A DNA stretch of 64,000 nucleotides from Psychrobacillus sp. INOP01 (lineage in GTDB: Bacteria > Bacillota > Bacilli > Bacillales_A > Planococcaceae), in contig NZ_CP073315.1 in NCBI RefSeq assembly GCF_018140925.1, positions 3,906,001 through 3,970,000 of the forward strand. Reading direction: 5' to 3'. Below, one piece after another: positions 41,251-43,969 of the stretch. Below the pieces are notes generated by a model, which saw nothing but the letters and a program-made list of their open reading frames with translations, was not told the origin of the DNA and made no database searches. The position numbers were made by a program, and so were the translations under genes. Numbering within the stretch: position 1 is the stretch's first letter; every line of letters starts with the position of its first letter.

Positions 41251-42225
41251 GTGGATAAGATGAAGTTAAAGTTACTCTATTCCGATTTAAAATCGGATCT
41301 TGATATCATCGAAAAAGAATTAGCTATAGCGGTGAATTCATCCTCTCACTTATTGAATGAGGCGTCTCTTCATTTATTACGTGCTGGTGGTAAACGAATT
41401 AGACCAGTTTTCGTCTTGCTTGCAGCGAAATTTGGAAACTATTCAATAGACTCTATAAAAAATGTGGCTGTTTCTGTTGAACTCATTCATATGGCTTCTC
41501 TCGTCCATGATGATGTAATTGACGATGCGGAAACTAGACGGGGCAGAGAAACGGTGAAGGCACAGTGGAATAATCGGGTCGCGATGTATACAGGGGATTT
41601 TCTTTTTGCAAATGCAATTGAATACATAACAGATTTACAAAATACATATGCACATGAAGTGTTATCGCAAACAATGGTGGAACTTTGTATTGGTGAGATT
41701 ATCCAAATCGAGGATAAACACTATCTTGAACAAACGGTTCGAGACTATTTACGTCGGATTAAACGAAAAACAGCAATTTTAATATCTGCAAGCTGTGAAT
41801 TAGGTGCAATTGCTTCCGATGCAGACGAGAAAACAGTAGAGCATCTGAAACGGTTTGGATATTATGTCGGTATGTCATTTCAAATAATCGATGACATTCT
41901 GGACCTTACATCTACTGATGAGCAATTAGGCAAACCTGCTGGATCTGATCTTGCACAGGGAAATATTACTTTGCCGGTTCTATATGTAAAAAACGATCCA
42001 GTCATCGAACCTTTATTAAGAGAAATATTAGAAGGAACGATTAGTGACGCAAATAGACAGCTGCTGTTATTGAAAATTCGCGAATCAGACGGTATAAATC
42101 GTGCAAAACAAATAAGTAATATATACTTGCAAAAAGCGCTAAATGAAGTAAAGCAACTACCGGCAAACTCCGCAAAGAAATCGTTACAAAACATTGCTTT
42201 GTTTATGAGTAAAAGGAAATTCTAA
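41251..42225 (+). CDS. hepT: Heptaprenyl diphosphate synthase component II
   Basis: A 324-residue trans-isoprenyl diphosphate synthase. The first aspartate-rich motif DDVIDD is at 87-92 and the second, DDILD, near 216; GGKRIRP precedes the first. It condenses isopentenyl units into the C35 menaquinone tail with HepS. GTG 41251 (GTGAGG 8 nt upstream) is preferred to GTG 41233, which touches the menG stop. Confidence 0.95.
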   Translation: MDKMKLKLLYSDLKSDLDIIEKELAIAVNSSSHLLNEASLHLLRAGGKRIRPVFVLLAAKFGNYSIDSIKNVAVSVELIHMASLVHDDVIDDAETRRGRETVKAQWNNRVAMYTGDFLFANAIEYITDLQNTYAHEVLSQTMVELCIGEIIQIEDKHYLEQTVRDYLRRIKRKTAILISASCELGAIASDADEKTVEHLKRFGYYVGMSFQIIDDILDLTSTDEQLGKPAGSDLAQGNITLPVLYVKNDPVIEPLLREILEGTISDANRQLLLLKIRESDGINRAKQISNIYLQKALNEVKQLPANSAKKSLQNIALFMSKRKF

Positions 42226-42370
42226 ACAACACAAATTTAAGGTTATATAACCTCTAGGGCATAGAGCAAATAACCAGATATTAATTTAATTTGAAAATAA
42301 TGAATTATAATGATAATATTTGTAACGGTGGAGAATAAAGTCCATTATATATTTTTGAGGAGTGTTAACT

Positions 42371-42817
42371 ATGGAAAAGACATTTTTAATGGTAAAACCT
42401 GATGGCGTACAACGTAACTTAATCGGTGAAATCGTAGGTCGTTTTGAAGCAAAAGGATTCCAATTAGTTGGAGCAAAATTAATGCAAATTCCTACTGAAC
42501 TTGCTGAACAACATTACGGTGAGCATAAAGAGCGCCCATTCTTCGGTGAATTAGTAGAATTCATCACTTCTGGACCAGTTTTCGCAATGGTTTGGGAAGG
42601 TGAGAACGTTATCTCAACTGCTCGTTTAATGATGGGTGCTACAAACCCTAAAGAATCTGCACCTGGAACTATCCGTGGAGATTTCGCAGTAACTGTAGGG
42701 AAAAATATTATCCACGGTTCTGATGCTCCTGAAAGCGCGGAACGCGAAATCGGATTATTCTTCAAACAAGAAGAACTAGTATCTTACAAAAAAGATGCTA
42801 ACAACTGGATTAACTAA
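42371..42817 (+). CDS. ndk: Nucleoside diphosphate kinase
   Basis: A 148-residue NDP kinase. The phospho-histidine is H115 in [16 protein letters not shown]; the N-terminal [14 protein letters not shown] is typical. ATG 42371 has GAGGAG 9 nt upstream. Codon choice is more biased than in its neighbours, as expected for an abundant protein. Position between hepT and cheR matches B. subtilis. Confidence 0.97.
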
Positions 42818-42822
42818 TATCT

Positions 42823-42865
42823 AAAATGGTTGTTTATGACTTCGGTCATAAACAACCATTTTTTT
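42823..42865 (+). terminator. Strong intrinsic terminator after ndk
   Basis: An 18-bp stem, AAAATGGTTGTTTATGAC and complement, around the stable tetraloop TTCG, followed by a T run. Confidence 0.92.
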
Positions 42866-42882
42866 GTTTTGAAAAATGTTCA

Positions 42883-43087
42883 ATACGAGCGAGATTCGAG
42901 CTTATACGAGAGAGACTGGTTGGTATATGAGAGCCCCACGGTTATACGAGAGGCCTCTACATCTAAGCGAGCAAAATTCGGGCTCGTACGAGAGAGAATG
43001 ATGCTATACGAGAGCCCTATGGTTATAATAGAGATATCAACGCCTATACGAGCGAAAATGACAGCTATACGAGAGAGACGCTATCTC
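42883..43087. repeat. Tandem array of ten ~20.5-bp units with higher-order structure (array C)
   Basis: Units start at 42883, 42904, 42925, 42944, 42965, 42986, 43006, 43025, 43046 and 43067, lengths 19-21 bp, each opening with ATACGAG or a variant. Units fall into four types ordered c-d-a-b-c-d-a-b-c-d: the two 19-bp a-units read ATATGAGAGCCCCACGGTT and ATACGAGAGCCCTATGGTT. The a-to-a distance is 81 bp. It sits between the ndk terminator and a second terminator, before cheR. An 88-codon frame spans it but has no ribosome site. Confidence 0.8.
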
Positions 43088-43094
43088 AACAGTT

Positions 43095-43133
43095 AAAAAG
43101 ACGGACAAATGTTCACATTTATCTGTCTTTTTT
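43095..43133 (+). terminator. Intrinsic terminator downstream of array C
   Basis: AAAAAGACgGAcAAATG, loop TTCA, CATTTaTCtGTCTTTTTT. It closes the array interval although no gene lies between it and the ndk terminator. Confidence 0.8.
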
Positions 43134-43198
43134 GTATGTTCGAAATGCTACGTATAAGATATACTAAATATAGGTTTTCAGAAAGGAGCGAAGTCATT

Positions 43199-43969
43199 TT
43201 GCCGGACTATATAAAGTTTGTGAATTCCATTAAGAAAAAAACAGGTATCGATCTTGCGGCGTATAAAGAGGCGCAGATGCGACGTAGACTTACCTCTTTG
43301 TATGAAAAAAAGGGATATAAAAATTTTGTTGAATTTTATCAAGCACTCGACTCGAATAGAGATTTAATGAATGAATTTCTAGATAGAATGACGATTAATG
43401 TTTCGGAGTTTTATCGGAATGCGAAACGCTGGGATGTACTACAAACTAAAATATTTCCGAAATTATTAGAAACTAATAAACGTCTAAAAATTTGGAGTGC
43501 AGCATGCTCTACTGGAGAAGAACCTTATACAATTGCTATGGTTCTGTCCAATCATGTTCCTTTATCTCAAGTTGCTATACACGCAACGGATTTAGATGAA
43601 AATGCAATACAACGTGCGAAGGTTGGTGTTTATCCTGAACGGTCGCTAGCCGAGGTTCCAATGGTTATGAAGAATAAGTACTTTGAGAACCAAACGCCAT
43701 TTTATAAGATAAGTGATTCGGTTAAAAAGACAGTAACATTTAAAAAACATAATCTATTGAAAGATACATATGATAAAAACTTTGATTTGATTGTTTGTAG
43801 GAATGTCATGATTTACTTTACAGAAGAAGCAAAAGATCAAATTTATCAAAACTTTAGTGATTCGCTTCGGTCCGGAGGAATACTATTCGTCGGTAGTACG
43901 GAACAGATATTCAATCCAGGAAAATATGGATTTGAAACGGAAGATACCTTTTTTTATCGGAAAAAATAA
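43199..43969 (+). CDS. cheR: Chemotaxis methyltransferase CheR
   Basis: A 256-residue SAM-dependent glutamate methyltransferase for chemoreceptors. YKEAQMRRRLTSLYEKKGY and TINVSEFYRN mark the N-terminal domain, KIWSAACSTGEEPYTIAM the SAM site, and IVCRNVMIYF and LFVGSTEQIFNP the C-terminal half. TTG 43199 has AAAGGAGCGAAG upstream and gives the B. subtilis length; the longer frame from 43109 starts in a terminator. Confidence 0.95.
   Translation: MPDYIKFVNSIKKKTGIDLAAYKEAQMRRRLTSLYEKKGYKNFVEFYQALDSNRDLMNEFLDRMTINVSEFYRNAKRWDVLQTKIFPKLLETNKRLKIWSAACSTGEEPYTIAMVLSNHVPLSQVAIHATDLDENAIQRAKVGVYPERSLAEVPMVMKNKYFENQTPFYKISDSVKKTVTFKKHNLLKDTYDKNFDLIVCRNVMIYFTEEAKDQIYQNFSDSLRSGGILFVGSTEQIFNPGKYGFETEDTFFYRKK

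Follow-up and report, generated by a model that had tools for sequence, protein, structure and literature searches.

The window analysed here, a stretch of 64,000 nucleotides, carries at 42882–43086 (+) ten head-to-tail units of 19–21 bp, sited between ndk and a cheR-like gene. The genome holding this array (G000 below) is a single contig of 4,301,978 bases (4.30 Mb). Each unit starts with a core near TATACGAGAG, followed by 9–11 free bases (the free half). Read by eye, the units are 21, 21, 19, 21, 21, 20, 19, 21, 21 and 21 bp long in order; the chain finder, unlike this reading, divides units 4 and 5 as 19 + 23 bp. The unit types follow the order c-d-a-b-c-d-a-b-c-d, the a units being those of 19 bp. 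The locus comprises the following features.

42374–42817 (+): ndk, nucleoside diphosphate kinase, upstream neighbour (name from the preliminary description)
42823–42862 (+): intrinsic-terminator-like stem after ndk, immediately 5′ of the array (terminator scan)
42882–42902 (+): unit 1, type c, 21 bp, core AATACGAGCG (sequence, chain finder)
42903–42923 (+): unit 2, type d, 21 bp (sequence, chain finder)
42924–42942 (+): unit 3, type a, short, 19 bp, ending in CCCCACGGT (sequence, chain finder)
42943–42963 (+): unit 4, type b, 21 bp (by eye)
42964–42984 (+): unit 5, type c, 21 bp, degenerate core TAAGCGAGCA (by eye)
42985–43004 (+): unit 6, type d, 20 bp (sequence, chain finder)
43005–43023 (+): unit 7, type a, short, 19 bp, ending in CCCTATGGT (sequence, chain finder)
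43024–43044 (+): unit 8, type b, 21 bp (sequence, chain finder)
43045–43065 (+): unit 9, type c, 21 bp (sequence, chain finder)
43066–43086 (+): unit 10, type d, 21 bp (sequence, chain finder)
43095–43133 (no strand assigned): second stem-loop with a T run, in the interval between the array and cheR (by eye; no call in the terminator scan)
43199–43969 (+): cheR-like gene, downstream neighbour (name from the preliminary description)

The preliminary description of this DNA had read the interval as ten units of 19–21 bp in a repeating c-d-a-b order with both a-type units of 19 bp, and the reading holds, the a units ending in GGT ahead of the T of the next unit. Its statement that no gene or known element explains the array also stands: a search of 42200–43300 against Rfam 15 gave 14 weak matches and none at the gathering score (those touching the array cover its first units only), and the open frame of 88 aa that passes through the array is not kept in the family. 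Tandem Repeats Finder, at a minimum score of 30, reported nothing at 42882–43086, whereas the near-identical units of a bacterial minisatellite are picked up by standard finders.

The periodicity of the array is significant against shuffled sequence, on which the preliminary description had been prepared to fall: the longest chain of a single 6-mer (one mismatch permitted, steps of 18–23 bp) has eight members, compared with at most five in 300 dinucleotide shuffles. At lag 4, which had been named beforehand, the free halves have a similarity of 0.52, compared with 0.20–0.37 at the remaining lags from 1 to 6; the lag-4 value is matched by 8 of 5000 random unit orders. When any lag may count, 62 of 2000 orders (lags 1–6) or 53 of 1000 (lags 2–8) do as well, so the block order of the window copy is borderline when taken alone. 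The orthologous array of a sister species (G138), with 25 units in 82-bp blocks that 0 of 1000 shuffled orders equal, settles the matter, and the proposed duplication of a four-unit block of about 81 bp is supported by this orthologue together with the lag-4 test. In the window copy the duplication is old, since self-identity at an offset of 81 bp has fallen to 62/124 (30/124 at 80 bp and 45/124 at 82 bp). The mean step is 20.44 bp; of three helical pitches, 10.25 bp per turn gives the highest phase resultant of the units (0.91), ahead of 10.0 (0.77) and 10.5 (0.43). Units spaced by two turns had been expected to face one side of the helix, which fails at 10.5 bp per turn; what remains of the phased anchor is a core and mean spacing held across loci and species, whereas the spacing is about 20.5 bp rather than 2 × 10.5 bp and is not that of every genus.

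In all 19 genomes of the genus Psychrobacillus, ndk adjoins cheR, with one Ndk match each and a gap of 115–1301 bp. Three species hold an array in this gap, of 10 (G000), 25 (G138) and 11 units (G125). Some of their unit types are recognisable across the three orthologues (the short unit CCCCACGGT, CCCCAAGGT and CCCCATAGT), and unit 3 of the window array (type a) has its counterpart in sister species at loci L122 and L124. A decayed chain of five weak units is found in the gap of G130, whose Ndk is identical, and the gap contains no three-unit chain in 15 of the 19 genomes. Strains with normal neighbours, no trace of units in the gap and no such arrays elsewhere had been named as fatal to the idea of a real array; the 15 genomes have the empty gap and the normal neighbours, yet arrays occur elsewhere, so this combination is not found in full.

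Other repeats were noticed in gaps without CGAG units, namely a 21-bp array with core TTCCAAC in G140 (L123, 2008–2071) and, by eye, GTTGCTTTCA-like units of about 21 bp at L137. Many of the 19 gaps contain, on inspection by eye, a sequence like the stem-loop at 43095–43133. Also by eye, the ndk-type array seems to have a dispersed copy at locus L155 (G138:C4, a 70-kb contig), where both the unit types and the 3′ stem are similar.

Distribution of the arrays

A search for such units across the genome and its relatives, suggested at the outset, recovered ten more arrays in G000 and others in some further Psychrobacillus, Sporosarcina and Bacillaceae. Exact adjacent unit pairs (TATACGAGMG, 8–14 bases, TATACGAG) occur 12 times in G000 compared with 0 for the reversed control pattern, and single cores (TATACGAGMG) 44 times compared with 16. 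Besides the window array, the chain finder lists arrays of 14, 4, 7, 8, 3, 4, 16, 15, 9 and 12 units. Among 261 genomes of the GTDB family, exact pairs are present in 12 (7 of the 19 genomes of the window's genus and 5 of one other genus), and the reversed control matched in one genome; the order-level search covered those same 261 genomes and yielded no more. Named matches are Psychrobacillus, Sporosarcina, Bacillus niameyensis, Bacillus sp. OK048, Siminovitchia fordii, Neobacillus niacini and Lederbergia panacisoli, and the longest arrays among matching genomes have 43 units. Matches in Lokiarchaeota and Porphyromonas records lack a four-unit chain and were attributed to chance, about three chance matches being estimated by hand.

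Two single pattern matches lie in viral contigs. A blastn search with one 29-unit array returned no match in 72,556 plasmid and 50,697 phage records, a search that diverged units could escape; a plasmid or phage origin was rejected on this result. The arrays of G000 are clustered along the chromosome, with five neighbour gaps below 60 kb compared with 1.4 expected (P 0.004), for a limit picked after the places of the arrays were known. In two genomes, G132 and G134, more pairs match the reversed control (GNGAGC at array spacing) than the forward pattern (20 to 7 and 30 to 6), perhaps because of another array core.

A detector that does not use the core made 93 detections of 20–21-bp arrays in 608 kb of fetched DNA (partly overlapping stretches) and none in Markov shuffles. 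Ten of these detections were not flagged as CGAG arrays; among the ten are one reversed CGAG array and two simple repeats. A core of TTACTTGC and 21-bp units characterise the main second family (loci L199–L215, L142, L150 and L157). Its exact pairs number 40 in G000, 42 in G125, 78 in G138, 216 in G130 and 3 in G131, compared with 1 for the reversed control, and none were found in 14 other genomes. Exactly six units make up 30 of the 52 distinct elements with at least four units, these 30 being spread over 19 loci, and a tail like GCGAAACGGATAATTTTTCCA follows in 18 of the 30 (strict pattern). The complement of the TTACTTGC unit contains YGARMGCAAGTAA, which overlaps the CGAGMG of the first family. 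Genome G130 is rich in TTACTTGC and has CGAG-type pairs at background (5, with 13 for the control), so sister species favour different cores within one architecture. At L201 of that genome (G130:C8:378500-384600), 226-bp tandem blocks contain a six-unit TTACTTGC element and a few reversed, degenerate CGAG units. A TTACTTGC pair lies within 500 bp of 3 of 37 CGAG loci. The complement GCAAGTAA is on the leading strand at 17 of 21 TTACTTGC places in G000:C1 (P 0.007), an observation confounded by gene orientation. A further 20–21-bp array, with core AGTCCGC, is located near a CGAG array in Sporosarcina (L175, 2207–2289).

Unit order, spacing and core divergence

Block structure was assessed in G000, G138 and G125, whose arrays of eight or more units number 28. 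Free-half similarity at the best lag is 0.47–0.87, compared with a mean of 0.24–0.50 at other lags. A higher-order period is present in 21 of the 28, which were beaten by fewer than 50 of 1000 shuffled orders (17 of them by fewer than 10); the other seven, the window's included (53/1000, any lag), have no block order beyond shuffles at 50/1000. Each locus has its own free halves, and orthologous arrays share unit types and differ in number and sequence.

Most units in these chains are 21 bp long (427), followed by 19 bp (90), 20 bp (16), 18 bp (14) and other lengths (9). At 17 loci where blocks are clear, the block period is 61–62 bp for three units, 82–83 bp for four, 102 bp for five (105 bp at L060), 122–124 bp for six and 143 bp for seven. 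At 16 of the 17, it is at most 1 bp off 20.5 times the unit number (3–7 units), the exception being L060. This tightness was equalled by 0 of 20,000 random draws of unit lengths, which do not model descent from one common block with a single short unit; such shared descent could produce part of it. The set comprises 17 of 18 locus groups, one with block similarity below 0.6 having been dropped, and the loci are partly dependent (L155 seems to be the ndk array copied elsewhere, and L060 and L143 share a flank). The mean spacings of the arrays also cluster, with a standard deviation of 0.155 compared with 0.252 in draws (6/2000).

In Sporosarcina, the mean spacing is 20.36 bp (142 steps of 20 and 98 of 21 in 21 arrays with at least six units). 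Some of these arrays alternate strictly between 21 and 20, and the order of spacings is mildly more regular than under permutation (30/1000); in one array of 38 units, 34 of 37 steps are 20 bp. Bacillaceae arrays average 20.0 bp per unit and TTACTTGC arrays 20.9 bp. A universal 20.5-bp rule was rejected, as it breaks down beyond Psychrobacillus and for some of the Sporosarcina arrays. Within the window's genus, the cores line up best at a pitch of 10.25 bp per turn; this is no constant, because other genera and the second family are spaced at 20.0–20.9 bp per unit.

Neutral arrays should accumulate differences equally in the two halves of a duplicated unit. The observed divergence is unequal. 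At the block lag, cores differ at 151 of 2220 positions (6.8%) and free halves at 287 of 2356 (12.2%); between orthologous arrays, the figures are 237/1700 (13.9%) and 575/1826 (31.5%). Core divergence is the lower of the two in all 19 ortholog pairs, which come from 10 locus groups. This holds even though units were paired between orthologues by their free halves; they were called at no fewer than 5 of 10 core matches, a lenient threshold chosen so that intact cores were not favoured. Six of 25 ortholog pairs were dropped for a shared flank or fragmentary chains (pairs whose first-listed locus is L060, L144, L152, L155 or L158). The AG at core positions 7–8 differs in at most 1.3% (calling threshold 7/10). 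Core and free half diverge by 76/912 (8.3%) and 116/629 (18.4%) in Sporosarcina, and in Bacillaceae the constraint on the core is weak, at 48/462 (10.4%) and 49/378 (13.0%). Short-tract gene conversion among units could mimic such constraint. The free halves are 52% GC (50% in the window array), compared with 34% in the intergenic DNA of the window and 28% at its third codon positions.

Placement and candidate explanations

Relative to the unit, the flanking genes are ++ at 20, -- at 21, +- at 18 and -+ at 3 of 62 places, counts that yield no orientation rule. These places are flanked on either side by an ORF of 100 aa or more (5 of 67 rows were dropped for lack of one) and comprise 38 of 40 rows from G000, G138 and G125, 15 of 16 from Sporosarcina, 5 of 5 from other Psychrobacillus and 4 of 6 from Bacillaceae, several rows being a single locus in two species. 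Outside Bacillaceae, 1 of 58 arrays lies between divergent genes, and in Bacillaceae 2 of 4; as background, 6 of 17 gaps are divergent in fetched DNA and 1 of 16 across the window. Avoidance of divergent gene pairs is therefore likely rather than proven, because these small background samples disagree. A rule of a co-oriented upstream gene, seen in G000 alone, vanished once more genomes were added, three-unit chains of poor core match being left out of part of that comparison. A replication-strand rule was likewise dropped, with CGAG arrays on the leading strand at 9 of 11 places in G000 (origin from dnaA, terminus as the opposite point) and only 10 of 17 in G138 (main contig only, counted by hand). 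By eye, the flanking genes of ten G000 loci, the window's included, share no common theme.

The arrays are best explained as a dispersed, concertedly evolving family whose cores would be cooperative sites for a DNA-binding protein, with both the protein and its purpose putative; we give this reading a probability of roughly 0.45. The arrays would grow via block duplication and be homogenised within species. A putative sequence-specific protein would bind the cores and pack along the array, with one protomer or dimer per two turns, and the packed protein may form a nucleoprotein filament or superhelix. Such a filament could serve local DNA architecture, insulation between genes or segregation-like tethering. 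It would act on DNA and not on mRNA, because gene orientation is free and divergent pairs are rare hosts. A pitch of 10.25 bp per turn would suit superhelically wrapped DNA, as in the plasmid partition complexes treated in excerpts of PMC5016525 and PMC9426499. A broader version, possible though on the unlikely side, would make these repeats the bacterial equivalent of satellite DNA, with several array families with different cores and a shared 20–21-bp architecture (one often a six-unit module), bound by dedicated, fast-evolving proteins as a phased intergenic filament; the core would turn over between sister species, and arrays would decay where the protein is lost.

The main rival is a neutral or selfish satellite homogenised by conversion, that is, a minisatellite that spreads by recombination, grows by slippage and unequal crossing-over at safe sites after genes, and has no function, its cores staying alike where units pair or convert. 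Its chances are considerable, though they fall short of even. Patchy presence (12 of 261 genomes, with no three-unit chain in 15 of 19 ndk–cheR gaps) and the strong variation in unit number between orthologues (10, 25 and 11 at ndk–cheR) speak for it, and it accommodates the ndk-type copy with a like 3′ stem elsewhere in a sister species (L155, by eye). The scarcity of arrays between divergent genes (3 of 62) fits as well, being shared with REP elements in the extracts of PMC3733652. It is strained by the unequal divergence of core and free half, both at the block lag and between species, by block periods tighter than random draws, by free halves far richer in GC than the other non-coding DNA of the window, and by the six-unit count of 30 of 52 second-family elements at 19 loci.

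An RNA element, in which the GAGAG motifs of a transcript would serve as sites for an RNA-binding protein or as a sponge for a regulator, is improbable. Arrays do often lie after the 3′ ends of genes, and an A/C-rich sense-strand 3′ flank of about 50 nt follows the last core at 11 of 28 loci (upstream 1 of 28; controls 0 of 60), part of which may be the poly-A side of convergent terminators; this flank was rejected as a shared array end on the same grounds. Folding gave no mean excess over shuffles on either strand of the 28 arrays (z of +0.26 and +0.72, each array trimmed to 330 nt, 30 shuffles). Single arrays range from −3.6 to +5.4, and a few, such as L060 (−3.3 and −3.6), fold better than their shuffles. 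Where both flanking genes point the same way, the unit shares their direction at 20 places and opposes it at 21, the ndk array sits beyond the terminator stem of ndk, and no Rfam match reaches the gathering score, all of which count against a transcribed element.

Similarly improbable is a reading of the arrays as iterons or partition centromeres of plasmids (direct repeats of the parC type with a ribbon-helix-helix protein) that persist on the chromosome as relics or decoys. According to excerpts of PMC9426499, ParR of pSK41 binds 20-bp repeats and ParR-parC is a solenoid, so that unit size and head-to-tail order agree with the parC repeats of this plasmid. Against such relics are the many loci per chromosome and the 29-unit array that found no plasmid or phage match by blastn, even if diverged units could escape; beside ten G000 loci (the window's included), no par or rep gene was noticed by eye. 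A decayed or real repeat protein has a negligible chance: a 21-bp unit would equal seven codons (a 7-residue repeat) and one frame through the window array is open, but the frame is not kept: of 123 short units, 90 measure 19 bp and shift it, and the block period is a multiple of 3 at only 4 of 17 loci.

Comparison with known repeats

No description of such arrays was found in the titles and abstract openings of the matches listed from the openly licensed PubMed Central literature. Bacterial minisatellites and small dispersed tandem repeats of about 20 bp, as covered in excerpts of PMC2884548, resemble the arrays in their short tandem units, variable copy number and dispersal. Repeats counted as minisatellites in those excerpts are at least 90% identical, whereas the present units are half free, have higher-order block periods and hold their core and spacing. 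Head-to-tail copies with a change in copy number, which define a minisatellite, are nevertheless seen between the three species. REP/BIME elements with RAYT, on the extracts of PMC3733652, are similarly intergenic, mostly in tandem or convergent gaps, and many per genome. Unlike them, the arrays are head-to-tail, with a non-palindromic unit and no mean folding excess. Plasmid centromere iterons (pSK41 parC and pSM19035 parS; excerpts of PMC5016525 and PMC9426499) are likewise direct repeats, of close to 20 bp in the case of pSK41, and lend themselves to a cooperative DNA-wrapping protein. The arrays do consist of direct repeats of 10–22 bp at regular spacing, as iterons and parC do, and differ in being chromosomal, in their many loci, in the lack of noticed par genes and in their locus-specific free halves.

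A CRISPR array has unique spacers between identical repeats of at least 23 bp. The conserved part here is 10 bp, and in 21 of 28 arrays the free halves are not unique but repeat at the block lag.

In the higher-order repeats of eukaryotic alpha-satellite DNA, several monomer types stand in a fixed order, with block duplication, within-species homogenisation and a short conserved protein box. The arrays described here likewise have unit types in a fixed order with a block period (the window copy at 53/1000 for any lag), and share block duplication, probable homogenisation and the contrast of a conserved core with free sequence. They differ in being bacterial, with 20-bp monomers and total lengths of 0.1–0.9 kb, and in having a putative rather than a known protein. 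Being compact, and gained or lost between sister species, they would allow simple genetics to be brought to bear on the need for a protein as opposed to self-spread. Higher-order repeats, concerted evolution and a constrained core are together a hallmark of the satellite DNA of animals and plants, which the CGAG arrays resemble more than they do ordinary bacterial repeats.
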